Assembly (NCBI RefSeq): GCF_030285785.1
Contig: NZ_CP127247.1
Coordinates: 1,883,501-1,947,500 of the forward strand
Length of the DNA: 64,000 bases
Source of the DNA: Parasedimentitalea psychrophila
GTDB lineage: Bacteria; Pseudomonadota; Alphaproteobacteria; Rhodobacterales; Rhodobacteraceae
Reading direction: 5' to 3'
The notes under the pieces are model-generated. The model was not told where the DNA came from. It searched no databases and saw only the letters and a list, made by a program, of their open reading frames with translations. Every line of letters begins with the position of its first letter. Within the stretch, counting starts at the first letter, position 1. Both the position numbers and the translations under genes were made by a program. Positions 28,407 to 56,134 of this stretch are shown one piece after another.

Positions 28407-30217
<1,811 letters not shown>

Positions 30218-30418
30218 CCCCACTTTCCGCTTCGCGGACAAGTGGGAATAACAGGTCCTCTTGGTGACAAGCGACAGGGTAGTCTACGCAGTGGACTGTC
30301 CCGACAGCGGGTCTCAGGATTACACCCTGCCTCGCAGAACATGACTGAGTGCTTCTCGCAGACTTTCCCTGAAAGTCGGCTGCCAGCACGCCCAGTCAAT
30401 TTGCGGCGCAAATTAACT

Positions 30419-30494
30419 GGGGCCTTAGCTCAGCTGGGAGAGCGCCTGATTTGCATTCAGGAGGTCAGGAGTTCGATCCTCCTAGGCTCCACCA
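30419..30494 (+). tRNA. tRNA-Ala (TGC)
   Basis: Acceptor GGGGCCT / AGGCTCC, anticodon loop TTTGCAT (anticodon TGC), T arm GAGTTCGATCC, encoded CCA. Standard second spacer tRNA. Confidence 0.97.
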
Positions 30495-30932
30495 ATTTAC
30501 TTTGATTAGATCTTCAAGCATTCCTTTGAATGTTTGAACGTCCAATCGGACGTGGCTTCGCAAGAAGCCTTGACATCGTTTAGAGAGATATAATCAACAA
30601 TACTGTTGGTCGCCCGAGTAAGGGAGAGACCTCAGATTGGTGCTGATCTTCCCTTCGGGGGCGTGATGCAAGCCTGTACGACATCTGTTTCCTCGGATGT
30701 TTATGGGTATGCCGGACTGAAACGACGGTGTTGTCCAAGTCAAGTAAACTAACCCGAGTACGTTCTTCAGTCACCTCCCGCACGGATGGTGATTGCATAC
30801 GGGACGTGCTCAAATTGTTCGCATCATTACTATGGTGCGAGCGGGAAAGTATGCTTTTGATATCAGAGATATATGGGAACAGTTTCTTACCAGCTTCTGT
30901 TCTCTGATTGACGCAAGTCTTTCTATTTCTGG
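30495..30932 (+). other. tRNA-Ala to 23S spacer
   Basis: 438-nt transcribed spacer without gene. Its last bases GGATCAAATCAAGC pair with GCTTGATTTGATCC at the 3' end of 23S (about 33824-33837), the processing stem. Confidence 0.6.
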
Positions 30933-33836
<2,904 letters not shown>

Positions 33837-34108
33837 CAGTAATAGACAGACTGTTAGCAATAACAAAAACTCTGTGAACGACAATCAAAGCATACATTCC
33901 AACCGTGTCATAGGTCGCCATAACTGGCGGCACGACACGTATCAGACTATACGAGACTTGGACAAAACGAAGGCATCTGCCCCCGGGCAGGCCACAACAT
34001 TGTTGGTGCAGGAACGCGCCTTTGCTTCGCAAAGACACTGTCTCCTGCTCGGCGCGCTTGCTCTGCAAGCACGCCGTATATCTCTCCAAAGCGGGGATTT
34101 TCCTCGGT
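33837..34108 (+). other. 23S-5S spacer
   Basis: 272-nt transcribed spacer; no gene seen. Confidence 0.5.
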
Positions 34109-34222
34109 TTGGTGGTCATAGCGCAAGTGAAACACCCGGTCCCATCCCGAACCCGGAAGTTAAGCACTGTTGCGCCGATGGTACTGCATCTTAAGGTGTG
34201 GGAGAGTAGGGCACCGCCAAAC
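34109..34222 (+). rRNA. 5S ribosomal RNA
   Basis: Starts TTGGTGGTCATAGCGC and contains the universal CCCATCCCGAAC and GGAAGTTAAGC segments; ends with GCACCGCCAA pairing with the 5' end. Confidence 0.97.
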
Positions 34223-34434
34223 CTAGAAAAATCCCCAACGATAAAACAAATAGAATACCTTCAGAACAATCAAAACCTCCTGAAGGATGACACGTCTCTC
34301 CGCAGACCGGTGAAGAGACAAACGGCCGAAAGCTACGATAGCAAGAGGCTAAGGTAGATGTTCGAAATCACCCTCGTGGTGAACAAACAAATACCAGGGC
34401 TCAAGTAGCGTAAGCGATAGCCCACTATAAGTGT
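34223..34434 (+). other. 5S to tRNA-fMet spacer
   Basis: 212-nt spacer without a gene. Confidence 0.5.
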
Positions 34435-34515
<81 letters not shown>

Positions 34516-35197
34516 CTTATGCAGCAAACACAGATACTTAACGCCACCTACGGGTGGTCGCTTGCGTTTGTGATATCTCGCTCGGTGCTACGCTGGTGCT
34601 ACGCTGGTGCTACACTGTGCAGCAAAGTACAGCAACGTTGAGCCGCTATGAAGGACGCGAATCTTGCGGCCATTGAATGCTGAAGATCACCCAACCACAA
34701 CGGATCGGCGCATTTACCGTCAGCACTGTCAGCCAATCGGGGCGAAGCAGTCGAAAAAGTGCCCGGCCGTTGCCGGTTGAGCATCCTTTGCAGTGTGAAG
34801 CTGATGTGTGACCCTTACCTGCTGGTCAACTCAACCACCCTCATTCCTGCCTTTCCCTCGCGGCTAAAGCCTATGTTTAGACCCTTACGCCTTAACACTG
34901 GTTGAACCCGGCGCAGGGCCGCGCCAAGCCGGGCCTCAGACCCTCCCTTTGGCAACTCGTGAAGGCTGGGGTTTCGATTTCATCTAAAAGCCGAGCGGGA
35001 AAATCACTTGCCCGCCGGGCGGTTTCATTAAATTTGTTAACTAATTCGAAGTGCTTCCCTTGGCTTAGATGTAAATTGTCCTAAATATCCGTTAAGATTG
35101 TAAGGGTTTCTGACCTGCATTTATCGCGTATTTCCGAATTTGCGCGTTTTTATCGAGCTTGGTTGGCTCGGTTTTTGAACTAATAGTGGAGTTATTC
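34516..35197. other. left end of island, no convincing gene
   Basis: About 680 nt. Contains the 11-bp repeat triplet at 34584-34616 and several short frames (for example 34902-35084 plus, 34599-34784 minus) without ribosome-binding sites or recognisable products. It becomes AT-rich towards the next gene. Confidence 0.4.
34584..34616 (+). repeat. three 11-bp phased repeats, left island end
   Basis: GGTGCTACGCT at 34584-34594 and 34595-34605, GGTGCTACACT at 34606-34616, exactly head to tail. A matching triplet occurs at the right end (41625-41657). Probable arm-type binding sites of the island integrase (inference). Confidence 0.65.
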
Positions 35198-36376
35198 ATG
35201 ATTGGTCGAGTAAATTTTGTAGCGCTTATTATCAGCGTTTCCTCGCTGGCTTTGGTAGGCCAAACGGCTAGTGCTGAACAGCGCTGCACGAAAAAAACGG
35301 TAAAGCAATCTGTTGCTACTGATGCACTGTGCGGGTGTACCGTGGTTACAACTGGGATGCTCCGCTACATACAGAGGCGGCCGGATTTCGATGAGATTCT
35401 GCTGCGAACGTCTGTCGAATGCCCCGCCTTTGCAGCTGTTCTTACCGATTTGCCTACGGCTTCGTTCGCAGCGGACGAACCAGAGAGGTCAGGCGAAGAT
35501 CGCGAAACTGAGGCCGGGGAACGCGGTAGTCGTGGTAACAGTGGCAGCGGTGATGGCGAAGCCGGTGAGAGCGGCAGCGGTGATGGCGGCTCAGGCGGAA
35601 GCGGTGATAGTGGCAGCGGTGATAGTGGCAGCGGCGACAGCGGTGATAGCGGCAGCGGCAGCGGTGACAGCGGCAGCGGTGACAGCGGCAGCGGTGATAG
35701 CGGCAGCGGTGATAGTGGCTCCGGCGAAAGCGGCAGCGGTGATAGCGGCAGCGGTGATAGTGGCTCCGGCGACAGCGGCAGCGGTGATAGCGGCAGCGGT
35801 GATAGTGGCTCCGGCGACAGCGGCTCCGGCGACAGCGGCAGCGGTGACAGCGGCAGCGGTGATAGTGGCAGCGGTGATAGCGGCTCCGGCGAAAGCGGCA
35901 GCGGTGATAGCGGCAGCGGTGATAGTGGCTCCGGCGACAGCGGCAGCGGTGATAGCGGCAGCGGCGACAGCGGCAGCGGTGATAGTGGCTCCGGCGACAG
36001 CGGCAGCGGTGATAGTGGCTCCGGCGACAGCGGCAGCGGTGATAGTGGCTCCGGCGACAGCGGCAGCGGTGATAGTGGCTCCGGCGACAGCGGCAGCGGT
36101 GATAGTGGCTCCGGCGACAGCGGTAGCGGTGATAGTGGCTCCGGCGACAGCGGTAGCGGTGATAGTGGCTCCGGCGACAGCGGTAGCGGTGATAGTGGCT
36201 CCGGCGAAAGCGGCAGCGGTGATAGTGGCTCCGGCGACAACGGCGGCGACAACGGCGGTGGTAACGGCGGTGGTGGCGGCGGTGGTGGCGGAGTTAACGG
36301 CAATAATGGGGGCGGTAACGGTCCCGAGGGTGGCAGCCCTGGTCAAGGAAGTGGCGCCAATGACGACGAAACCTAA
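35198..36376 (+). CDS. secreted protein with about 40 GSGDS repeats
   Basis: 392 aa, not a recognised family. ATG 35198 follows a GGAG and starts a clear Sec signal peptide (cleavage likely after TASA, residue 26). Mature residues 27-90 form a small domain with four cysteines (C30, C45, C47, C75), which could make two disulfides. Residues from about 105 to 348 are almost entirely GSGDS pentads, then a glycine/asparagine-rich tail ending DDET. No membrane anchor or LPxTG-like sorting signal. The repeat DNA alternates two synonymous 15-bp versions in 30-bp units that are nearly identical from 35990 to 36240, a sign of recent expansion. Acidic, flexible and probably extracellular or periplasmic; function unknown. 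Confidence 0.75.
35600..36240 (+). repeat. 30-bp / 15-bp tandem repeat tract inside the GSGDS gene
   Basis: Basic unit is 15 bp encoding GSGDS in two forms, GGCAGCGGTGATAGT and GGCTCCGGCGACAGC. These alternate as a 30-bp unit, most regular from 35990 to 36240; three successive units share the GGTAGC variant (36122-36200), showing block duplication. All lengths are multiples of three, so copy-number change keeps the frame. Confidence 0.9.
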
Positions 36377-36427: not shown

Positions 36428-36453
36428 AGACACGCGCCTTTAGGCGCGTGTCT
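36428..36453. terminator. bidirectional terminator between repeat protein and protease genes
   Basis: Perfect 11-bp stem AGACACGCGCC / GGCGCGTGTCT with loop TTTA, in the 93-nt gap between two convergent genes. Confidence 0.8.
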
Positions 36454-37596: not shown

Positions 37597-38711
37597 TTAA
37601 ATGCTTGTGATCTGGATGAGCCGTTCGCCTGATTTCCCGCGACGTTCAAAGCTGATTGCAATGCGCCCTCTGCGAAGGGGCGGTTGCACACGTCGAAGCG
37701 CTGCACTGAGTTTGTTTTCCTGGCGTGGAAAACTGTACGGGTCATCTGTGAGCGTCGGAAAGCGTTGGCGCAGGGTTTGTTTGAGATCGGTCGCGGTGCC
37801 TTCCCAATGCTTCTGAGCGCCCATGAGGCGCATGACTGCCAGGGCTACTGGGTTGTTTTCGATTGCGGATTGGTCGCTGGTCTCTCGGTTTGCTGCGTAG
37901 GAGTCCAGAAATGCCCCCTCAGGCCACCCTAAGGCTGGCGCGGCGGCTACTACCCATTTTGCAAAGTCCGCCATTCTGGGGGCTTCTGAGAGACTCACGG
38001 AGTCAATTCGGGAAAGGGCCGTCGAAACCGCATCCAGGAGCGCCCCCAGAATGAAGGGGGCCGCTTTGGCGAAGTCTCGATTGAAACTACCAAGTGTGCG
38101 GCGTTCACGTGATGAGATCACCGGCAGGGTGACGCCAATAGAGCGGTCGGCCAGATCGGGGCGCGCCGCCAGATCGGGAATGCCGTTCAACAGACAGGGA
38201 CGGGTCGCGTTGAACAAGACTTCATCTGTGTCTGTGTGCAGTTTCCTTGTGCCAAAGCCACCACCAGTGGCAATCCGGCAAAAAGCATCAGCCATCATTG
38301 GGCGGATGTTAGACAGATTGTCGAAAGACAGGACATGGTTGTGTTTGGCTGCGATTACCAAATCCTGTTCAGTTGAAGGTGTGCTGCGGGTGCTGGGATT
38401 GGCTGGATCAACCAGGCTGCGCAAGATCTGCGCTGTCGTGCTTTTGGCGCTGCCCTGTTCACCTGACAGGATCAGGATGGGGTAGGGGCCTTTGGGGTGA
38501 AAACAGCCGACAACCCAGGCGACAAGCATCCGGAAGTCATCGTCATCTTTGACATTGAGGAAGGGGCGCAGAAGCTCGATGCCGCCGCTGTGCCGTTCTG
38601 GAACGGGGAGAGCATCCATGGATGGTGACCGGCGAAACCGGGCCATTGGATGGGTGACCACCTGCCAACCCTCGGCGGTAATTGCGACCGCCTGCCAATT
38701 CGCATCCCCTA
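37597..38711 (-). pseudogene. 5'-truncated helicase-type ATPase of a mobile element
   Basis: Open frame read from the IS border at 38711 to the stop at 37597; the longest ATG-started part is 354 aa (from 38661). The coding sense continues upstream of that ATG (LGDANWQAVAITAEGWQVV) to the IS edge. Walker A is GEQGSAKS, followed by LSFDNLS and RIATGGGFGTRK, matching plasmid/phage primase-helicase C-terminal domains. The N-terminal primase half is missing and is not found on the other side of the insertion, so the gene was truncated by a deletion before or with the IS insertion. Probably inactive. Confidence 0.75.
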
Positions 38712-38721
38712 GGCTCAGGAC

Positions 38722-39111
38722 TCATAACCAGAAGATCACGGTTGCTGCGAGAGCGATGGCGGACAGGAAGACCTTCGGGCATCGGTCACAACGGGTAGCC
38801 ACGCGCCGCCAGTCTTTCAGGCGACCAAACATGATCTCAATCCGGTTACGTCTTTTGTAACGACGCTTGTCGTACTTGATGGTTTTGTCTCGCGACTTTC
38901 GTCCAGGGATGCAGGGCGTTATTCCCATATCTACAAGGGCCTCTCGGAACCAATCCGCGTCATATCCGCGATCTCCCAATAGCCAGTCGGCCGCTGGCAG
39001 ACTATTCACCAGAGCTCTTGCCCCAGTGTAATCGCTAACCTGACCGGCGGTCAGGAAGAACTGGATCGGCCGCCCAATCGCGTCCACTGCCCGGCAGTGG
39101 TTTGCCTGCAA
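38722..39111 (-). CDS. IS5-family transposase, OrfB part
   Basis: 129 aa carrying the C-terminal half of an IS427-type transposase: TAGQVSDYTGA, LGDRGYDADW and the final RYKRRNRIEIMFGRLKDWRR with the catalytic glutamate. Normally joined to OrfA by frameshifting at the A7G5 tract (39180-39191 region). Between the OrfA-side segment GRTKGGMNTKLHAV and DAIGRPI I see about 41 bp that the family usually lacks, which changes frame; this copy of the transposase may therefore be inactive. Confidence 0.75.
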   Translation of the reverse strand: MQANHCRAVDAIGRPIQFFLTAGQVSDYTGARALVNSLPAADWLLGDRGYDADWFREALVDMGITPCIPGRKSRDKTIKYDKRRYKRRNRIEIMFGRLKDWRRVATRCDRCPKVFLSAIALAATVIFWL

Positions 39112-39169
39112 ACCATGAGAGGGGTCACGGCATGCAACTTCGTGTTCATACCGCCCTTGGTACGTCCGA

Positions 39170-39517
39170 TCAGACGTCCACGCCCCCTTTTTTTACCCGC
39201 AGGCTGGAGGCCGTGCGATGTGCCTTGAGGTAAGTTGCGTCAATTGAGATCGTCTTGTTGTCAGGAACCTCGGCTGCCAGCCCCATCATAATCCGCGCGA
39301 ACACTCCCATGTCGCTCCACCGTTTCCAGCGGTTGTAGAGCGTCTTGTGTGGACCATACTCCTTGGGCGCATCACACCAACGCAACCCATTGCGATTGAT
39401 GAAAATAATACCACTTAACACTCGACAATCATCGACCCGTGGCACGCCATGACTCTTCGGAAAATAGGGCCGAAGCCGAGCCATCTGATCTTCGCTCAGC
39501 CAGAAAAGATTACTCAT
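39170..39517 (-). CDS. IS5-family transposase, OrfA part
   Basis: 115 aa N-terminal half: FWLSEDQMARLRPYFP, DDCRVLSGIIF, LYNRWKRWSDMGVF and the catalytic aspartate in ISIDATYLKAHRTA. Ends at VKKGGVDV right after an A7G5 run, the usual slippery site for making the OrfAB fusion. Confidence 0.85.
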   Translation of the reverse strand: MSNLFWLSEDQMARLRPYFPKSHGVPRVDDCRVLSGIIFINRNGLRWCDAPKEYGPHKTLYNRWKRWSDMGVFARIMMGLAAEVPDNKTISIDATYLKAHRTASSLRVKKGGVDV

Positions 39518-39625
39518 AAAACCCCCGTAATTTGGGGCCTTGAATCATGCAGAACAGATAGCCTCAAGCAGATTAATGGCTCCTGAGCCTAGAGGGTTAT
39601 TTCTACGCCGGGGAAAACACTGCCT

Positions 39626-40441
39626 CTAAACGCTACGGGTTTCGTCCTTTAGTTGTGATCGGATATTTTCGATGGCCGTACCGGCAAGACTTTCCGCCAC
39701 TTGGGAATCCATTTTGGAGATGATCTGATAGAGCGTATAGCCTGGCTCTGAAACATAGCCGCCACGGTCGTGATGATATCTGCCCCTGATGTACTTTTGT
39801 TTGGAGTAGGTCTCCCAGATGGGTCGGAAGGCACTTGCTGCGGTTTCGAGGGCATGGAACTTGGGAAGAGGCTCTCGGCGCTCAGAGAGTTCCTTGTTGA
39901 GGGCCATCGCATGGAACTTGGCTTCGTGGCGAAACTCCCTTTCGTCATCATCCTCGCCAGGAAGGGGAATGATCTCTCCAATCGATTGCGTCAGCGCCTC
40001 TGAAATGTCTTGGAGATAGTTCAGAGGTTTTTCTGGCCCGTTTCGCGCCTCGGCAGACCGATGTGCTTGCGTTCCCCTTACTTGAGAAGAGGTGAGGTAC
40101 TTGCTAACGCCCTCTTGGATCATGGATGCCGCGATATCGCTTTTGGATACTTGGCGAAGGGCATAGGCCAATTGCTGTGCAGCAAGACCTGCACTAAATA
40201 GATGCTTGCCTGTGTGCTTGAGAAATCCGCTTTTCTCGATGGTCTTTGCCTGCTTTCCGGACAGGTAGGCGCGTGCAGTGTTGTGAACTCCCAATACAAG
40301 CTCAACTGGCTGCGGTGATTTATCGAAGAGGCGGGTGAAATTAATAAAAAAATCAGGCGTGTAGACGTCGCTTAGGTCAGAAAATAGATCATTGCTGACC
40401 ATCAATCGTTGCCAGACTTCATTCCGTAATTTCTTGCTCAT
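39626..40441 (-). CDS. hypothetical island protein (271 aa)
   Basis: Not recognised. ATG 40441 overlaps the 3' end of the integrase gene by 23 bp, implying coupling to it. No signal peptide; helix-rich, soluble composition, with a charged middle (PLPGEDDDEREFRHEAKFHAMALNKEL) and C-terminal LKDETRSV. Overlap with the integrase suggests a role in island maintenance or transfer rather than cargo (inference). Start at 40471 is also open. Confidence 0.65.
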   Translation of the reverse strand: MSKKLRNEVWQRLMVSNDLFSDLSDVYTPDFFINFTRLFDKSPQPVELVLGVHNTARAYLSGKQAKTIEKSGFLKHTGKHLFSAGLAAQQLAYALRQVSKSDIAASMIQEGVSKYLTSSQVRGTQAHRSAEARNGPEKPLNYLQDISEALTQSIGEIIPLPGEDDDEREFRHEAKFHAMALNKELSERREPLPKFHALETAASAFRPIWETYSKQKYIRGRYHHDRGGYVSEPGYTLYQIISKMDSQVAESLAGTAIENIRSQLKDETRSV

Positions 40442-41606
40442 CGTCGCCTTGCTCCGGTTGCATATATCCAAACATTACATCCGTCGCCTTGTTCACGGAT
40501 TCACGAACCGGGTCTAGGTTGAGCCGTGCATAAATCGCAGTTGATTGCTGGCTGCGGTGCCCCAGTGATTTACCGATGATGTAGCCATTTGCCCCCGTCG
40601 CGGCCTGGTAGCTGCCCAATGTGCGCCGCAGATCGTGAATGCGCAGATCTTCAATGCCAGCCTCGATCAGGATGCGTGCCCAGGCTTTCTTGGGGTCCGC
40701 CAAATGCCCCGTTTTGCCCGCCCCTGGAAACACCCAGGGGCTTTCACTTTGCCACCTGCGTTCGGTCAGGATTGCCATTGCCTGCTTGGGAAGGTGGATG
40801 GTCTGTGCTTCGCCGTTTTTGGTCTCTTCCACACGCCAGGTCTCAACGCTGAAGTTGATATCCTTCCACCGCATTGCCAAGGTGTTCGACTTCCGCGCCC
40901 CGGTGAGAAGGGAAATCATGATGAAATCCCGAGCGGCCCCGTTTGGCTCATTGGCCAGTGCCTCGAAAAAGCGAGGCAGTTCATCAGGTTGCAAGAACCG
41001 ATCACGGCTCCTTTCTTTGAACTTTTTGACGCCAACGGCTGGGTTTGATCCATCCCAGCCCCAATCTATTGCCTTGTTGAAGATGGAGCGGATGCGTTCC
41101 AGCAAGCGATTAGCTTGGTAAAGTCCATTCTCTTTGCCGATCTTGGCGTGAAGTCGCTCCACCTCACTTCGATCAATCAACGATATCTTTCGCTTGAACC
41201 AATGCGACAGGAATTTGTTCACCTCACGCTCGTCATAGGTCCATGAGCGTTTATGCACCTTTGAGTACTTCTCCATATATTCGGTGAACAGCGCCGCAAA
41301 GGTCATTTCATCCCGAATGGCGCGGCGCTCTTTCTGCGGATTTTGACCGCTGACAATATCACCCTTTGCCGCCGCTGCCGCCTTCCTGGCGTTCTCGATG
41401 CTGATATCCGGAAACCGCCCCAGGAGGACGCGTTCAGGGCGTCCGTCAATCCGCTTGTAAAGGTAGAAGCTCTTGGTTCCGGTCTGCGTCACCGCCATCA
41501 CCAGGCCCTTTTCCCGGTCGTCGTAATAGTAATCCTTCTTGCCTTTGTCAGCATTCGGGGCCTTCAACAAAGCGGCCTTGGTGAAGTTCAATCTATGGTT
41601 GGTCAA
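40419..41606 (-). CDS. tyrosine recombinase/integrase of the tRNA-fMet island
   Basis: 395 aa, P4-like: N-terminal arm-binding DUF4102-type domain (about 1-95, YYYDDREKGLVMAVTQTGTKSF), core-binding SAM-like domain (about 100-190), catalytic domain with R238 (LTGARKSN), K263, H324 and R327 (HDLRRT), H350 (LGHRS) and nucleophile Y359 (TAIYARL). All catalytic residues are present, so it is probably functional. It is transcribed away from the right border, at the end of the island distal to the intact tRNA. Confidence 0.93.
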   Translation of the reverse strand: MTNHRLNFTKAALLKAPNADKGKKDYYYDDREKGLVMAVTQTGTKSFYLYKRIDGRPERVLLGRFPDISIENARKAAAAAKGDIVSGQNPQKERRAIRDEMTFAALFTEYMEKYSKVHKRSWTYDEREVNKFLSHWFKRKISLIDRSEVERLHAKIGKENGLYQANRLLERIRSIFNKAIDWGWDGSNPAVGVKKFKERSRDRFLQPDELPRFFEALANEPNGAARDFIMISLLTGARKSNTLAMRWKDINFSVETWRVEETKNGEAQTIHLPKQAMAILTERRWQSESPWVFPGAGKTGHLADPKKAWARILIEAGIEDLRIHDLRRTLGSYQAATGANGYIIGKSLGHRSQQSTAIYARLNLDPVRESVNKATDVMFGYMQPEQGDDEQEITE

Positions 41607-42539: not shown

Positions 42540-45500
42540 TTAGGCAAAGACAAAGTCAGGTGGGCCGAGGACATCGATATCGATATCACGCAAAGTGATC
42601 GTGAACGCATCTAGTGTGATCACGGTATCAGGGCCCGATTGCGCAAAACCGAGATCCTCGAAGTCGCTCACATTGGTGATGTTCTCGAAGCGGATGACAT
42701 CGATGCCGTCTTCGAAGTCGGTAATAAAATTCGCCCCGTCAGACTCGTCAGTGAATTGAAAAACGTCCGCGCCATCCTGACCATACAGCCAATCGTTGCC
42801 AGGATTGCCGGATGGCGCATCGTCTTCTGCTCCACCAACGGGTTCGCCGTCGCCACCCTGCGCAAAGAGTTGCTCGTCGCCTGCAAGCCCGTTCAAGCTG
42901 TCGTTGTATGGGTCGCCGTAGATCAAGTCAGCGCTGCCAGCAAGTAACGGATCAGCGCCCGGCAGGTCGATTGTGTAGCTGTCAATCAGTGTGCCGCCAT
43001 CCGCAATCGACCAAAACTCAAAGGTGATCGACGCGTCGCTGGCCTGGACCAACATGGTGCCGTAATCGTCATTGTAGCGCGCCTCACTGCCCGGGATCGG
43101 GGTGTCGAATTCACGTATAATGCGCCCGCCAAGCCCCGTGACGAAATAAGGCAGCGTCTCCCCGTCGCCATTGTTGTCGCGCAGAATCCGTTCGTAATCG
43201 TGATCGTGGCCGGTAAGGACCGCTGTGACGCCCCAGTCCTCGAAGGGCCACTGCAGAGCCGAGTTCGATCCGTGAAACCCGGAGGAATAGGACGCGTGGT
43301 GAAAGTAGACGATCTTGTATAACGCATCGGAATTTGCCAACTCCGTTTCGAGCCACTGTGCTTGGTCTGAGGTGCTGGATCGACCATCGGGTTCCTGACC
43401 ATTGCTGTTGAGCGCAAAGAAATGGACGGGGCCCGTCTGGAAATCATAGTAGCGCTCGTTGCCCGGAAGGGAGAAGTAATCCAGGTAAGCACCCAAGCCG
43501 ACATCGCTGTAGTCGTGGTTGCCGAGCGACGGGAAGAAGCGGTTGACCTCGCTTCCCGGTCCGTAGGCCCCGGAATAATTGCCGATATAGTCACCAAAGG
43601 AGGGCCCGATCTGGTCATCGATTGGTAGCGCGTAACCATTGTCTCCGGTGGTAATGATGAAATCGACATTCATGCCGTCAATCATATCAGCCATAGACAG
43701 CATGCCCGGGCTAACTATGTAGTCTCCAAAGGCCGCGAAGCGCACTTCGTCGATATCCGTGACCGCGACTGTCAGGCTGCGGGTGACGCTAAGCCCGCCC
43801 GGGTCAATGGCGGTGACATCGAGATCGATCTCGTCGCCCAGCTCGTAGTCGAGGCGAATCCCATTCTTGAGTTTTAGCTGGCTGCCCACGACCTCGAACC
43901 GCGGATCGCTGAGCAGGAAGCTGTGGGTGTCGCCCGCATCAGGATCTGTCACGCTGAGAGTTCCGGCGACGACGCCCGGCGCATTCTCGACCAAGGCCTG
44001 GCCTGGGAGGAAGACGATATCGGTCGGTGCGCCTCCGCCGCCGCCATTGACAAACACAAAGTCGATATAGTCGGTGCGCAGCGGTTCGCTACCATCCTTG
44101 AAGCCGACGAACTCGATCACGTCACCGGCTGTCAGCGACAGGTCGCTGATGATGTGTTCGGTAAAGGAGGTCTGGTCGGCCGTCGCCGATCCGGCATCGG
44201 CATTCCAGATAAAACTGTCGACCTCAAACCCATTCACCAGGATGCTCATTTGCGACTGGCCGTCGGACTCGTCGAAATGGCCAATTTCCAAATCATAGAT
44301 GCCACTGGCCGCTGCAAATGCATAAGATGCGCGCTGCTCGCCGCTGCCGTTGGCCTGCAGATATTGGCCGCCGGAACCATGATTGTTGTTCTTAACGGTA
44401 AACCCGCTGAGGATAGTGAACGTCTCAGCTTCGACCCGGAACGGATCCGGCGGCGCCGCGGACAGGTCAACCGTGAACCCCTGCATAGACGGGTCGGCCG
44501 ACACGAAATTGCCGCTGGTGTCCTGAACTTCGGCGGCCATAAGGGCAACGTTATAGCTGCCCTCGTCGGCCACATCCCAGGTTCCGCCGGGCGCGTCCAC
44601 CGTATAGGTCGCGGTGCGCGGGGTTCCATCACCGCCGATGTCGACGCTGACGGCGCTGACCGTGAGTGCACCACCCGGCCCGGTGACGGTGATGTCACCG
44701 GTATCGATTGAGGACACATCAATCGCCACGTTGTCAGAGAAGGTCACGGTGACATCCATAGTGGCGCTACCGGCCCCAGCAGGGCCGACGTCGGGCGCCA
44801 AAGACGACTGGATGAAAGGCGATGTCGTATCACCGCCGCCGCCGCCATCGACAAACACAAAGTCGATATAGTCGGTGCGCAGCGGCTCACTGCCATCCTT
44901 GACGCCGACGATCTCGATCACGTCACCGGCAGACAGCGACACGCCACTGATCGCGTGTTCGACAAAGGAGGTCTGGTTGGCGGTGGAGCCTCCGGCGTCG
45001 ATGTCCCAGACAAAGTTATGGATCTCGGTCCCATTCACCAGGATGCTCATTTGCGACTGGCCGTCGGACTCGTCGAAATGGCCAATCCCCAGATCATAGC
45101 TGCCACTGGCCGCTGCGAACGTGTAGGACGCCCGCTGCTCGCCGCTGCCGCCAGCCTGCAGATACTGCCCGCCCGAAGCCTGATTGTTGTTCTTGACGTT
45201 AAAACCGCTGAGGATAGTGAACGTCTCAGCTTCGACCCGGAACGGATCCGGCGGCGCCGCCGATAGATCAACCGTGAAGCCCTGCATAGACGGGTCGGCC
45301 GACACGAAATTGCCGCTGGTGTCCTCAACCTCGGCGGCCAGAAGGGCAACGTTATAGCTGCCCTCGTCCGCCACATCCCAGGTTCCACCCGGCGCGTCCA
45401 CCGTATAGGTCGCCGTGCGCGGGGTTCCATCACCGCTGATATCGACGCTGACGGCGCTGACCAAAAGCGCACCGCCCGGACCGGTGACGGTGATGTCACC

Positions 45501-46082
45501 GGTATCGATTGAGGACACATCAATCGCCACGTTGTCAGAGAAGGTCACGGTGACATCCATAGTGGCGCTACCGGCCCCAGCAGGGCCGACGTCGGGCGCC
45601 AAAGACGACTGGATGAAAGGTGATGTCGTATCACCGCCACCGCCGCCATCGACAAACACAAAGTCGATATAGTCGGTGCGCAGCGGCTCACCACCATCCT
45701 TGACGCCGACGATCTCGATCACGTCACCGGCAGACAGCGACACGCCACTGATCGCGTGTTCGACAAAGGAGGTCTGGTTGGCGGTGGAGCCTCCGGCGTC
45801 GATGTCCCAGACAAAGTTTTGGATCTCGGTCCCATTCACCAGGATGCTTATTTGCGACTGGCCGTCGGATTCGTCGAAATAGCCTATCCCCAGATCATAG
45901 CTGCCACTCACCGCTGCGAACGTGTAGGACGCCCGCTGCTCGCCGCTGCCGCCAGCCTGCAGATAGGCCCCACCCGACGCGACCGAATTGCTCGCGACCT
46001 TGAAGCCGCTCAGAAGATCGAACGTTTCCATTTCAATCTGAAATGTGTTGCCGATTGCCAAATCGCCACTCCAGTGAGCCAC
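42540..46082 (-). CDS. modular extracellular metallophosphatase with three repeated modules and degenerate RTX tail
   Basis: 1180 aa. Order: carbohydrate-binding-like beta domain 1, Ig-like domain 1, beta domain 2, Ig-like 2, beta domain 3 (to about 690), a cadherin-like domain (about 695-778), a calcineurin-like phosphoesterase (about 779-1010) and a C-terminal region with RTX-like remnants. Phosphoesterase motifs are intact: AAFGDYI, TTGDNGY, LGNHDYSD, YFHHASYSS, GHDHDYERI, resembling purple-acid-phosphatase-type enzymes. The tail (NDSLNGLAGDEQLF, GNDWLYGQDGADVFQF, FEDGIDVIRF) resembles type I secretion substrates but its calcium nonapeptides are damaged. No N-terminal signal, consistent with type I export; no T1SS genes nearby. 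Start is GTG 46082, with weak ribosome-binding site. Confidence 0.85.
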   Translation of the reverse strand: MAHWSGDLAIGNTFQIEMETFDLLSGFKVASNSVASGGAYLQAGGSGEQRASYTFAAVSGSYDLGIGYFDESDGQSQISILVNGTEIQNFVWDIDAGGSTANQTSFVEHAISGVSLSAGDVIEIVGVKDGGEPLRTDYIDFVFVDGGGGGDTTSPFIQSSLAPDVGPAGAGSATMDVTVTFSDNVAIDVSSIDTGDITVTGPGGALLVSAVSVDISGDGTPRTATYTVDAPGGTWDVADEGSYNVALLAAEVEDTSGNFVSADPSMQGFTVDLSAAPPDPFRVEAETFTILSGFNVKNNNQASGGQYLQAGGSGEQRASYTFAAASGSYDLGIGHFDESDGQSQMSILVNGTEIHNFVWDIDAGGSTANQTSFVEHAISGVSLSAGDVIEIVGVKDGSEPLRTDYIDFVFVDGGGGGDTTSPFIQSSLAPDVGPAGAGSATMDVTVTFSDNVAIDVSSIDTGDITVTGPGGALTVSAVSVDIGGDGTPRTATYTVDAPGGTWDVADEGSYNVALMAAEVQDTSGNFVSADPSMQGFTVDLSAAPPDPFRVEAETFTILSGFTVKNNNHGSGGQYLQANGSGEQRASYAFAAASGIYDLEIGHFDESDGQSQMSILVNGFEVDSFIWNADAGSATADQTSFTEHIISDLSLTAGDVIEFVGFKDGSEPLRTDYIDFVFVNGGGGGAPTDIVFLPGQALVENAPGVVAGTLSVTDPDAGDTHSFLLSDPRFEVVGSQLKLKNGIRLDYELGDEIDLDVTAIDPGGLSVTRSLTVAVTDIDEVRFAAFGDYIVSPGMLSMADMIDGMNVDFIITTGDNGYALPIDDQIGPSFGDYIGNYSGAYGPGSEVNRFFPSLGNHDYSDVGLGAYLDYFSLPGNERYYDFQTGPVHFFALNSNGQEPDGRSSTSDQAQWLETELANSDALYKIVYFHHASYSSGFHGSNSALQWPFEDWGVTAVLTGHDHDYERILRDNNGDGETLPYFVTGLGGRIIREFDTPIPGSEARYNDDYGTMLVQASDASITFEFWSIADGGTLIDSYTIDLPGADPLLAGSADLIYGDPYNDSLNGLAGDEQLFAQGGDGEPVGGAEDDAPSGNPGNDWLYGQDGADVFQFTDESDGANFITDFEDGIDVIRFENITNVSDFEDLGFAQSGPDTVITLDAFTITLRDIDIDVLGPPDFVFA
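44040..46010 (-). repeat. 801-bp direct repeats within the phosphatase gene
   Basis: The beta-domain plus Ig-like unit recurs with an exact 801-bp (267-codon) period: beta domains near 45672-46010, 44871-45210 and 44070-44410, Ig-like parts near 45240-45640 and 44440-44840. Copies 1 and 2 are almost identical over hundreds of bases; the third beta domain has diverged. Confidence 0.9.
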
Positions 46083-52252: not shown

Positions 52253-52870
52253 ATGTTTGTGTGCCCGAGGCACAAATTTTCTTTTGCGAGAATTCCGAAA
52301 TGTGCGAATTCAACTCTAGTGAAGACATTTTCCAAACACTGCGGTGTGACACTCAAAAATGATGCCTCCGGCCAAAAAGCAAAGATTCTATTCAATCTCG
52401 ACGCCGGTGCATCTGTATTTGAGTCCGCCAGAAAAGCCGTATTCTTTCGTGAGCCGTTGTCGCGGGCAGTCTCCATGTGGCTTGACAAGGGGCACAATTT
52501 AACCTGGATACAGAAATGCAGGTTTGCCGGTTCAGATACGCAAGCGCCGACATTTCTCGAGTTTTTGAAATCACTTGAAGAAAACGAATTTCACCACGAT
52601 GGCCACTTCATTCCACAGACCAGCATGGTGCCAGGCGATCTCTCACAGTATCACGTTGGAACTGTTGAGAATATCGACAGGGATCTTCCCCGTATTTGCG
52701 AGGAGATTTTTGGCGAATTTTTTGGAGTCGAATTAGAACGATCAAATCGGACAAATGCACATGAGCGACTTGGCGAAATCTCGCAAGAGGAGCGAGACCT
52801 GGTATCGAAACTATATCACAGGGACTTCGTGCTCTATAATTCTCTCAGTGCAAATGCTGCCTCGTTGTGA
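52253..52870 (+). CDS. sulfotransferase family protein
   Basis: 205 aa. PAPS-binding motifs: the 5'-phosphosulfate loop in FARIPKCANSTLVKTF and the 3'-phosphate motif in VFFREPLSRAVSMW. Short but complete for the small sulfotransferase-2-like group. ATG 52253 comes directly after the IS3 scar and lacks a strong ribosome-binding site. Overlaps the next glycosyltransferase by 4 bp, so both probably build or modify a surface glycan. Confidence 0.8.
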   Translation: MFVCPRHKFSFARIPKCANSTLVKTFSKHCGVTLKNDASGQKAKILFNLDAGASVFESARKAVFFREPLSRAVSMWLDKGHNLTWIQKCRFAGSDTQAPTFLEFLKSLEENEFHHDGHFIPQTSMVPGDLSQYHVGTVENIDRDLPRICEEIFGEFFGVELERSNRTNAHERLGEISQEERDLVSKLYHRDFVLYNSLSANAASL

Positions 52871-53802
52871 GCTCTCTGTCTGTAGTCATGGGCGTTCACA
52901 ACGGTGCAAAATACCTCTCCGAGGCAATTGACAGCATTTTGTCGCAGTCTTTCCGGGATTTTGAGTTCATCATCATTGATGACGGTTCAACGGACGCAAC
53001 GGCTGAAATCCTGGGTGAATTTTCGCGCCGGGATTCGCGCCTTCAATGTATATCCCTCGATAAGAATTTGGGTTTGCCGCATGCTCTGAACCTGGGCATT
53101 CAAAAGGCGAGTGGAAACATAATTGCCCGGATGGATTGTGACGATGTGTCCGGTCCTGAGCGCTTTGAATTGCAACTCGCAGCCATGGAGACCAGCGGCG
53201 CTGATCTTTTGGGAACATTTGCTTTCAGTCTGAGCTCGAACGGAGCCACGAAGGTGAGAGAGCCACTGCCTGTAACGGAAGACGGCATCGCGCTAAGATT
53301 ACCACACAGCAATTGCATCGTTCATCCCAGCGTAATGGTTAAAAAGACTGTGCTGGAGGATGTCGGAGGCTACAACGAAGAGTTCTTGAATAGCCAGGAC
53401 TACGATCTTTGGCTTCGCCTGCTACCGCAGGCTCGGATGAACAATCTGGACGTGCCTCTGATCGGGTACAGAAGGCACAATGGCCAGATCAGCGCTCGCA
53501 AAAGTAGAGGTAAACAAACACATTACAGTGTCTGCGCCGCCTTGAGCCATTTTAGAGTTGGCTTCGACATGGATCGCATTAGCCCAAAGGAAGATGTCGC
53601 GGTTGTTGTCAACGGCTTTACCGAAGTCTTCCAGGCTGATCTCACTCCTCGGGTAAGGCAGTGTCTTAACGGGCATGTGATCCGATACGCCCGAAAATGC
53701 GTACGAGACAAAGATCAGCGCAAGGCCCTGAGGGACCTCTTGTTTACAACCGCCACGTTTCGTGAAAAGTGCAAGTGGCAACTCTACCAGTTGACAGGTT
53801 AA
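52867..53802 (+). CDS. family 2 glycosyltransferase
   Basis: 311 aa, GT-A fold. VVMGVHNGAKYLSEAIDSIL at the start, IIDDGSTD nucleotide-binding segment, RMDCDDV as the metal-binding DxD, and NSQDYDLWLRL with the catalytic ED-equivalent. Start GTG 52867 overlaps the sulfotransferase stop. Cytoplasmic or membrane-peripheral; likely transfers a sugar to a polysaccharide precursor. Base composition is less GC-rich than the core genes, consistent with acquired surface-polysaccharide functions. Confidence 0.9.
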   Translation: MSSLSVVMGVHNGAKYLSEAIDSILSQSFRDFEFIIIDDGSTDATAEILGEFSRRDSRLQCISLDKNLGLPHALNLGIQKASGNIIARMDCDDVSGPERFELQLAAMETSGADLLGTFAFSLSSNGATKVREPLPVTEDGIALRLPHSNCIVHPSVMVKKTVLEDVGGYNEEFLNSQDYDLWLRLLPQARMNNLDVPLIGYRRHNGQISARKSRGKQTHYSVCAALSHFRVGFDMDRISPKEDVAVVVNGFTEVFQADLTPRVRQCLNGHVIRYARKCVRDKDQRKALRDLLFTTATFREKCKWQLYQLTG

Positions 53803-54269
53803 GGGTGCGCGGCCCCGTCATTATACCGCGTATTGATGACGCATTTGGGGGCGCTCTGTTTTGGGCTGTGGGGCCGAATGGCAGATAGCGTCGAGGCTTC
53901 CATTTTGTCAGAATTCATCAAAGGCCGTATTCGTAACGAGACAGTGGTCTTGTCACGGTTTGGTGCCGTCCTTTTGTTAGTATATTTTGCAACAAAGGAG
54001 ATGAACTATGGGACCAACACCAACGGAATTCGATCCACAAAGGCAGCCAAGAGCAACAACAGTGCAAATAGAAGTTAAGCGGCAAGTATCGCCGAAGTTG
54101 GTGTCTTTGCGCCGGATTTCTCGTTCAAATCAGACCTAATGATTGCGTCAATTCCTCCCTCGTCGCCTTGGTGTACAGGGATCTTGTTGGTATAACGAAA
54201 ATGATCTATTTGCAGTTTAATATTCCAAATTGGAATTTTTGAACAAGTATCGGTTTTGGAGGATGAGCC
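53803..54269. other. intergenic region with a possible small ORF
   Basis: 467 nt before the LysR gene. A 43-codon frame (54008-54139) follows AAAGGAGATGAACT; otherwise nothing recognised. Confidence 0.4.
54008..54139 (+). CDS. possible 43-aa small protein
   Basis: Starts MGPTPTEFDPQRQPR and ends RRISRSNQT; basic, no membrane segment. The AAAGGAG 8 nt upstream is a good ribosome-binding site and the preceding stretch is AT-rich. No family recognised. A 25-codon frame in another register uses ATG 54001. May be spurious. Confidence 0.3.
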   Translation: MGPTPTEFDPQRQPRATTVQIEVKRQVSPKLVSLRRISRSNQT

Positions 54270-55199
54270 ATGGATAGCCGCATTGGACTGCGTCAGCTCC
54301 GCGCCTTTCACGCCGTCATGACGACAGGCAATGTCACTGCGGCGGCGCAGCAACTAAATTTGACCCAGCCTGCGGTCAGCAAACAGCTTGCCGCGCTGGA
54401 ACAGTCTTTGGGCATCACATTGTTTCACCGGAAAAGCGGCTCTGCCACCAGCGCCACCAGAGAGGGCATTGCTTTCTTTAAAGCCTCGGAAACAACGATT
54501 TCCGGGCTGGAAGATTTGCCGATGATTGCGCGTGACATTGCCACCAACAGCCAGCGTCGCCTGCGCATTGCCGCGACTCCGCCGATCATCAACAGCCGCC
54601 CCATGATGCAGGCCATCAAGAACTTCCGCCGGGATTATGAGGATATACAGATCTCTTTTGAGGCGCGCGCCCGGATTGACATCGAAGATTGGGTGCTGCG
54701 GCGTCAGGTCGACTTTGCTGTTGCCCTGCTTCCTGCAAGTGCGCCGGGCCTTAGCGCGCGCAAACTTGTTGATACCTCGGCGGTTGTTGCAATGGCCCCT
54801 GATCATGTCCTCTCGGGTGAGGATGTGCTGACCCCTGAAACAGTTAAGGGGCATCAAGTCATTCTGCCAAGCCGTCAATTGCTGCGGTGCCGCATTGAAG
54901 CGGCGCTAAAGACCTCAGGAGAATCCCTGCAGGTTGGAATGGAGGCCTCGTCGTCGCTCATGTGCTGCCACATGGCCGCCTCGGGTTTAGGCGTTGCGAT
55001 TTGCGATCCTTTTAGCCCATCCACATTTGCGCAGTCTCTCTTGACGGTTCGGGCCTGGCAGCCTGAAGTACCATTGTCTTATGGTGCATTGATGCCAAAG
55101 GATGTCGACCTGAGCAGCCCCGCCTGCAGATTTCTTGACCTCCTAGAGGAGAGTTTTTCTATGCCGCTCCAATCCGGATTACCGCGAGCATCCGCATGA
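54270..55199 (+). CDS. LysR-family transcriptional regulator
   Basis: 309 aa. N-terminal winged helix (LRQLRAFHAVMTTGNVTAAAQQLNLTQPAVSKQLAALEQSLG) and a periplasmic-binding-like effector domain. GGAGGATGAGCC precedes the ATG. Its stop overlaps the next gene's ATG (ATGA), so it is cotranscribed with the formylglycine-generating enzyme and may regulate it or the nearby ABC importer. Effector unknown. Confidence 0.93.
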   Translation: MDSRIGLRQLRAFHAVMTTGNVTAAAQQLNLTQPAVSKQLAALEQSLGITLFHRKSGSATSATREGIAFFKASETTISGLEDLPMIARDIATNSQRRLRIAATPPIINSRPMMQAIKNFRRDYEDIQISFEARARIDIEDWVLRRQVDFAVALLPASAPGLSARKLVDTSAVVAMAPDHVLSGEDVLTPETVKGHQVILPSRQLLRCRIEAALKTSGESLQVGMEASSSLMCCHMAASGLGVAICDPFSPSTFAQSLLTVRAWQPEVPLSYGALMPKDVDLSSPACRFLDLLEESFSMPLQSGLPRASA

Positions 55200-56134
55200 C
55201 GGATGGCAAGCCCTGTTGTCATGTTGCCCGTAACATGGGCCATAAGGACAGCGCCCCACAGGTCTTCACCGCTCAGAAAAGCAGCGTCAATTTTGACACT
55301 GCCCTGATCCCCGGTGGCAAGGCGGTGGGCGGCACCGCACATCCGAAAATTGCCGACGATGGCGAGGGTCCGTTGCGGTCTTCGCGTGTCAGGCCGTTTC
55401 GTATGGCGATGACCACAGTGACCAACGCCCAGTTTCAGGCCTTTGCTGCGGCAACCGGCTATGTCACTGAGGCCGAGGGTTTTGGCTGGTCCTTTGTCTT
55501 TTGGAGCGATGTTGCCAAACAGAGTGCTGGCGTGAGGCGGGTGCCGGGGCTGGATTGGTGGCGCGCGGTGGAGGGTGCGGACTGGCGCAACAGTCATGGC
55601 CCAAAGACGGACCCGTCGGTCTGGCGGTCAGATCACCCCGTTTCGCAAGTGTCCTGGGCCGATGCCCGGGCCTACGCGAGCTGGGTCGGGGGGCGACTTC
55701 CAACCGAGGCCGAATGGGAACATGCTGCCCGTGGGGGGCTCGGCGATGTCAAATATCCTTGGGGAGACAGCGACCCGGACGACGTTGGCAATTTCCGATG
55801 CAATATCTGGCAGGGCCATTTTCCGCAGACAAATACAGCAGCTGACGGATACCGCCATACCGCCCCGGCGCAGTCGTTTGAACCCAATGGCTTTGGCCTC
55901 TACAACATGGTTGGAAATGTCTGGGAATGGACCGGCGACAGGTTCACGATCAAGTCTCTGAAGACTTCCGTAAAGGCAAGATTGGCCGGGATGAAGGATT
56001 ACCGCCTGTCCAAAGGCGGCTCTTTTCTGTGCCACCAAAGCTATTGCTTCCGATACCGCATCGCCGCGCGCTCAGGCAACTCGCCGGACAGCGCAACTCC
56101 GCATCAGGGGTTTCGAATGGTTTGGGATGTTTGA
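55196..56134 (+). CDS. formylglycine-generating enzyme (sulfatase maturase, SUMF1 type)
   Basis: 312 aa. Contains GRLPTEAEWEHAARGG, GNVWEWTGD and, decisively, GGSFLCHQSYCFRYRIAARSGN with both active-site cysteines (C279 and C284) that bind copper in true formylglycine-generating enzymes; paralogues of other function lack this pair. It oxidises a cysteine in the sulfatase motif CxPxR to formylglycine. The N-terminal CC near residue 8 occurs in other bacterial members as I recall. No sulfatase gene lies in the window. Confidence 0.88.
   Translation: MTDGKPCCHVARNMGHKDSAPQVFTAQKSSVNFDTALIPGGKAVGGTAHPKIADDGEGPLRSSRVRPFRMAMTTVTNAQFQAFAAATGYVTEAEGFGWSFVFWSDVAKQSAGVRRVPGLDWWRAVEGADWRNSHGPKTDPSVWRSDHPVSQVSWADARAYASWVGGRLPTEAEWEHAARGGLGDVKYPWGDSDPDDVGNFRCNIWQGHFPQTNTAADGYRHTAPAQSFEPNGFGLYNMVGNVWEWTGDRFTIKSLKTSVKARLAGMKDYRLSKGGSFLCHQSYCFRYRIAARSGNSPDSATPHQGFRMVWDV

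Follow-up and report, generated by a model that had tools for sequence, protein, structure and literature searches.

A repeat-tailed exported protein of Parasedimentitalea psychrophila and its relatives as a candidate substrate of a neighboring LapG-type protease

A gene of 392 codons in Parasedimentitalea psychrophila encodes a protein with a signal peptide, a small cysteine-containing domain and a long tail of GSGDS repeats. It was found in a stretch of 64,000 nucleotides that was analyzed as a whole (the window, to which all positions below refer). Next to it lies a gene for a LapG-like protease of the BTLCP family. The tail protein is probably what this BTLCP cuts, since the two genes co-occur almost constantly and are usually placed end to end. 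On balance, we favor the reading that the BTLCP has the tail protein as its dedicated substrate and would release the tail by a cut at PTA|S. A broader claim is made more tentatively. It is possible that in Rhodobacteraceae and relatives a LapG-type protease that operates free of LapD has an undescribed family of Sec-exported proteins as its dedicated substrate, with the tail released or trimmed at PTA|S and with no part played by c-di-GMP/LapD, T1SS adhesins or retention modules. As far as the literature searched shows, the partner family and its pairing with BTLCP are undescribed, as no paper on the pairing was found; the protease family itself is known.

The repeat-tailed gene

The open reading frame starts with the ATG at 35198 on the + strand, and its stop codon ends at 36376. 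The features of this gene and of the adjoining protease gene are as follows.

35186-35192, + strand: Shine-Dalgarno-like GGAG region, about 10 nt 5' of the ATG (direct sequence reading)
35198-35275, + strand: putative signal peptide, residues 1-26, with a hydrophobic core and an A-S-A end (by inspection)
35276-35473, + strand: small conserved domain, residues 27-92, with C30, C45, C47 and C75 (alignments A2 and A4)
35438-35467, + strand: L-T-D-x-P-T-A-[ST] motif, residues 81-90, at the order/disorder boundary; candidate BTLCP cleavage site A88/S89
35540-36237, + strand: GSG[D/E]S tail, 41 pentads, mainly in 30-bp units (TRF and pentad count)
36299-36373, + strand: non-repetitive C-terminal motif, common to members in other genera (alignment A6)
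36428-36453, no strand: perfect 12-bp inverted repeat between both stop codons
36470-37093, - strand: BTLCP / Peptidase_C93 protease, 207 aa, LapG-like, with a signal peptide (PF06035)

Other open reading frames overlie the gene, two on the other strand (312 aa and 251 aa) and one of 359 aa in another + frame. These were rejected as by-products of the repeat.

A sequence-only reading of this gene had described an exported protein of unfamiliar architecture, with a compact domain of four cysteines and about 40 pentads. This description holds. The N-terminus reads as a Sec signal peptide, the family relatives likewise begin with signal peptides, and export of the 392-aa protein via Sec is predicted. 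The four cysteines all fall within residues 27-92, and 41 pentads were counted. The domain gave no convincing match in Pfam, NCBIfam, PHROGs or the PDB sequences. What has changed is the interpretation, as the conserved partner protease and the PTA[ST] boundary motif shift the reading from a spacer to a protease-processed protein.

The conserved domain and its family

The family was found from two domain relatives first, both convergent with a BTLCP gene, and profiles then found more members. Their architecture is a signal peptide, one or two copies of a domain some 45 aa long, and a hypervariable hydrophilic tail. The core of the domain can be written as LC..(4-8)..hydrophobic..I.R.DF..IL......CP.LA..L[TS]D.PTA[ST]. 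Two of its four cysteines are invariant across the family. Equivalents of C30 and C47 are both present in 50 sequences and both missing in 5, with the second alone in 2. Since C30 and C47 are thus gained and lost together, the alignment suggests disulfides C45-C75 and C30-C47 in the domain.

Structure prediction of the domain, which had been proposed as a check, gave an AF2 model of five short helices with a pLDDT of 74 (moderate confidence). Structural relatives of the domain were sought with this moderate-confidence model, and none was found by Foldseek (E >2) or VIA-align (Z <2). With a pLDDT of only 74, a new fold is not claimed for the domain. A gamma-crystallin profile match (E 0.86) was taken as chance. 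Outside of the window's bacterial family, a class-wide sample of 240 genomes contained no match to the domain. A phage or plasmid origin of the tail-protein gene was rejected, as tblastn found no match in phages or plasmids and no PHROG was convincing.

The BTLCP protease

The BTLCP gene is convergent with the tail gene and lies 93 bp from its stop codon. The 207-aa protein matches PF06035 with an E of 3.9e-43, at 147.5 bits over a cut-off of 27. Its catalytic residues (C123-H157-D172) and its calcium-site residues (D122/E124) are invariant in 53 sequences. It aligns to the LapG structures 4u65 and 4fgo (Pseudomonas, Legionella), which are its closest solved relatives. The AF2 model has a pLDDT of 86.8, and the top six Foldseek matches are all LapG (E 2.9e-8 to 7.6e-6). 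On the strength of this model, the protein is assigned the LapG fold. With the LapG equivalog NF045674 of NCBIfam it scored 40.4 bits against a cut-off of 320, and by its sequence it is LapG-like, not LapG.

The perfect 12-bp inverted repeat between the two genes is probably a shared terminator. In a terminator scan, terminator-like sites were no commoner than in shuffles.

Linkage of the two genes across genomes

The linkage was followed in 394 genomes of the window's bacterial family, mostly one genome per genus. The domain was present in 21 of these, PF06035 over its cut-off in 29, and both in 20 (Fisher p = 1e-25, a value that ignores phylogeny beyond the one-per-genus sampling). In the sole genome with the domain and no PF06035 (G267), the domain gene sits at a contig end. 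The genomes with BTLCP only carry more distant BTLCPs only. In the window's genus, the same two of eight genomes carry the domain and PF06035.

An independent scan for BTLCP in named genomes (Ruegeria, Roseovarius, Aliiroseovarius, Shimia, Lutimaribacter, Defluviimonas, Jannaschia and others) gave 79 loci. A convergent domain gene was found within 3 kb at 61 of them, mostly 23-193 bp away, and at three more the domain gene was on the same strand within 4 kb (64 in all). For the remaining 15 loci, 14 genomes carry the domain elsewhere or at a contig end. The one exception is from a MAG, and its contig ends 411 bp past the BTLCP. Eight of the 15 unlinked contigs end 144-691 bp from the BTLCP, and the contigs of several separate domain copies break off within the tail. 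Some of the apparent separations are therefore assembly breaks in repeats. For the same reason, many draft annotations probably have the family in pieces or lack it. Contigs from short reads (L186, L187, L190, L192, L198 and L199) and the loci L099, L110, L112, L121 and L140 all end within the tail or just past the BTLCP.

In a BTLCP tree built on few columns and with many open forks, a single clade with a support of 87 takes in all 72 domain-linked rows. The distant BTLCPs outside this clade have no adjoining domain gene. No third neighbor is conserved across genera; only the domain gene and the BTLCP are kept together. A conserved neighborhood is found in Ruegeria only, with an alanyl-tRNA-synthetase-like gene on one side and a typA-like GTPase gene on the other (both named by sequence). 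A second domain gene, at a distance from the BTLCP, is also common in Ruegeria. Such departures from one-to-one pairing count against a dedicated substrate. In Ruegeria L200-L204 this second copy is divergent and has its own variable tail. The convergent orientation likewise counts against it, as it implies separate transcripts.

The linkage bears on the earlier idea that the protein is a spacer or surface polymer of variable size, functionally unconnected with the adjoining protease. An export signal and in-frame length variation would suit such a polymer. However, the co-occurrence and adjacency with BTLCP across many genera disfavor it, and the domain and motif persist in members whose tail chemistry is wholly different. 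We regard this explanation as remote.

The protease and its partner do not appear to belong to a Lap system of the known kind. LapD, searched for by its LapD_MoxY_N periplasmic domain, is absent from the window's genome and from nine of ten carriers. None of the ten has a LapA-type retention module over the cut-off, and the window's own genome has a single match below it (29.6 against 50 bits). Membership in a LapA-LapD-LapG system was rejected on these grounds. The pair thus differs from Lap systems in having LapD in only one carrier in ten, in having no retention module over the cut-off, and in the convergent placement of protease and partner.

The absence of LapD can also be read in another way. 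The small domain could be an inhibitor, pro-domain or adaptor that controls the BTLCP, as LapD does elsewhere, with the tail serving to tether or solubilize it. The near-strict co-occurrence and the nine carriers that lack LapD are consistent with this, BTLCPs elsewhere have a dedicated regulator (PMC13090378), and a stable domain held by disulfides fits an inhibitor. On the other hand, the linear motif at the boundary of domain and tail is highly conserved, as in a cleaved site, and the long tail, which has no conserved chemistry, is left unexplained. Control of the BTLCP by the small domain is considered unlikely.

The boundary motif as a candidate cleavage site

The tail protein as a substrate of the BTLCP is also argued for by the motif that closes the domain, L-[TS]-D-x-P-T-A-[ST]. 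Information content was measured over 72 sequences in windows anchored on the motif Thr, which is also invariant in alignments A2 and A4. It is 1.9-4.2 bits over T-A-[ST]-[IV] and 0.4-0.8 right after; that is, it stays high to +3 from the motif Thr and then falls to background. In the AF2 domain model, the last helix (model residues 50-58) is followed directly by T-D-L-P-T-A-S, with pLDDT <50 beyond.

LapG and DvhG read their substrates through a targeting helix and a DP turn, cleave at [TAP]A|AG and make no contacts past the cut (PMC13090378). Further work has defined these substrates (PMC3032545; PMC6890996; PMC11264772), and T is found at P2 in most LapA/RtxA sites (PMC11264772). The predicted helix and the motif resemble this arrangement, conservation drops sharply after the motif, and cleavage at PTA|S is proposed for this reason.

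Several points speak against cleavage. The candidate site has S/T in place of A-G at P1', and D-x-P in place of DP (D-x-P-T-A-[ST] as opposed to DP..[TAP]A-A-G), so it is a variant and not the LapG consensus. The disulfide-stabilized domain may hold the last helix and block docking. The gene pair could also make a complex or an inhibitor pair instead. A weak signal in favor of the substrate reading comes from one clade, a Roseovarius/Lutimaribacter group (L101, L127, L133, L143 and L147). In this group TTFS replaces PTAS, and its BTLCPs share residues private to them at the sites two positions ahead of the catalytic H157 and D172.

The repeat tail

The tail of the window protein consists of 38 GSGDS and 3 GSGES pentads, and only eight nucleotide versions encode all 41. 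TRF reports a period of 30 bp in 21 copies with 0% indels. The longest repeated block of variants is eight pentads (ABABABAB), a length reached in 0.05% of shuffles. Few nucleotide variants and a long repeated block indicate that the array grew by block duplication, as the sequence-only reading had proposed. It had also expected the tail to change length in frame. Tail length differs in all 19 pairs of relatives with BTLCPs >90% identical (relatives, not isolates of the same species), with a median difference of 54 aa. A shared repeat number in distant strains, which that reading had named as speaking against it, was not found among these relatives.

Its suggestions of calcium binding and of an acidic polymer do not hold as general roles. 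The tails of the family may be of Gly/Asn/Ser, neutral Gly/Ala, Glu/Pro, Asp, Lys/Ser or Arg/Ala type, and their net charge runs from -82 to +29, the latter in a Lys-rich tail. As the chemistry is not conserved and the length differs among close relatives, calcium binding is not a shared role. The Ser-Asp character is limited to the window member and is no family trait. The Sdr/Clf proteins of staphylococci have a length-variable stalk of Ser-Asp rich repeats; they are Gram-positive proteins, sortase-anchored, with large ligand-binding domains. The likeness to them lies in the Ser-Asp repeat of the window member only and does not extend to its family. Two known repeat families were also considered and rejected. 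Pentapeptide_2 (PF01469) matched the repeats only, at 17.3 bits below its gathering cut-off of 26.4. An RTX calcium-binding repeat protein was set aside, since the unit is GSGDS and not the GGxGxDxUx nonapeptide, and no RTX Pfam match was found.

The array could be low-complexity drift driven by slippage on a small periplasmic protein of which the domain alone matters. The units are nearly identical and the tails hypervariable in length and composition, as drift would predict. Against this, a tail that is hydrophilic, poor in cysteine and in frame is retained by nearly all members (27-364 aa), and in some the repeats are followed by a conserved C-terminal motif. The tail therefore seems to be selected, and drift alone is quite improbable. 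The C-terminal motif, NNG.GNG.EG.SPG....ANDDE, is common to the window protein and to members of at least three other genera. A search of 12 genomes with it gave only three matches, each a C-terminus of the tail-protein family.

Tail composition also bears on a cross-linking role, in which the BTLCP would act as a transglutaminase or transpeptidase and join the tail protein to another envelope molecule in a matrix or coat. BTLCPs have a transglutaminase-like fold, HvyA has been suggested to act by such chemistry (PMC4241560), and sortase-like ligation at the TA|S motif is conceivable. But lysine is missing from 31 of 65 tails and glutamine from 21 of 65, and the tail of the window protein has a single Gln and lacks Lys. 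The frequent lack of Gln or Lys speaks against cross-linking, and the BTLCPs with tested substrates are proteases. Cross-linking appears highly improbable.

Proposed mechanism and comparison with known systems

The two convergent genes may be a protease-substrate module. Both proteins would leave the cytoplasm by Sec. The 392-aa protein would fold into a small helical domain held by disulfides, and the LapG-type protease encoded next door would recognize the last helix of this domain together with T-D-x-P-T-A-S. A cut between A88 and S89 would part the compact domain from the long, disordered and fast-changing hydrophilic tail, which would be the sole part that the protease need not read. Free or attached, the tail may give the cell envelope a bulky, hydrophilic extension. 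The linkage of the genes, the motif, the intact triad, the LapG fold, the tail variability and the scarcity of Lap partners are observations, and from these we infer the cleavage itself, the exact bond and the job of the tail.

The closest counterparts are LapG-LapA of Pseudomonas fluorescens, LapG-FrhA/CraA of V. cholerae, DvhG-DvhA of D. vulgaris and LapG-RtxA of Legionella. As in the LapG systems, the window BTLCP has the C-H-D triad and calcium-site residues. The exported protein resembles their substrates in its predicted helix, followed by a variant of the D/P turn and by TA with a small residue where the folded part gives way to the disordered one, and in the repeats beyond. Unlike LapA-type substrates, which are giant T1SS adhesins that bear a beta-rich retention module, it is a Sec-exported protein of about 120-550 aa across the family with a small disulfide domain. 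The gene pair probably works like a LapG-substrate pair, yet outside of the Lap system, although we hold this with only modest confidence.

The best studied of the alphaproteobacterial BTLCPs, HvyA, governs capsule and phage sensitivity in Caulobacter and has, to our knowledge, no known molecular target. Like this capsule restriction factor of Caulobacter crescentus, the window protein is an alphaproteobacterial BTLCP, predicted to be periplasmic, that has no known Lap partners. Unlike HvyA, which is located in a capsule export locus, the BTLCP/tail pair has no capsule gene family recurring beside it. The molecular target of HvyA is not named in its description, and alphaproteobacterial BTLCPs are thought to act on specific, mostly unidentified targets (PMC4241560). 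LapG of Pseudomonas aeruginosa is reported to release the surface adhesin CdrA (PMC4694147); to that extent, it resembles the BTLCP proposed here to release part of an exported protein.

BTLCPs are widespread in alphaproteobacteria, and comparative genomics here names one candidate target with a predicted scissile bond. If the proposal is true, LapG-type proteolysis reaches beyond giant adhesins and c-di-GMP control. It would also be a case in which a protease site is kept while everything downstream evolves freely, and would constitute a protease-gated envelope system with an evolvable disordered tail.

Genomic surroundings

A complete rrn operon (28407-34511; 16S, tRNA-Ile, tRNA-Ala, 23S, 5S and tRNA-Met) is directly upstream of the gene pair. 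A mobile segment (37597-41606) adjoins the pair. It contains a 354-aa protein with a P-loop-like stretch and no Pfam match (37597-38661), pieces of an IS4/5-type transposase (38722-39517), and a tyrosine integrase with Arm-DNA-bind_3 (40419-41606). Further along, a 1180-aa protein (42540-46082) has long, near-identical internal repeats, a calcineurin-like phosphoesterase domain, a cadherin-like stretch and C-terminal RTX-like motifs. A cluster at 52253-56134 contains putative genes for a sulfotransferase (52253-52870), a family-2 glycosyltransferase (52867-53802) and a formylglycine-generating-enzyme-like protein (55196-56134). In a relative of the same genus, the protein encoded directly upstream of the tail gene (L002:884-1468) ends in VPLPGGMVLLLGAGAALGAARRRKS, which resembles a VPLPA-CTERM sorting signal.
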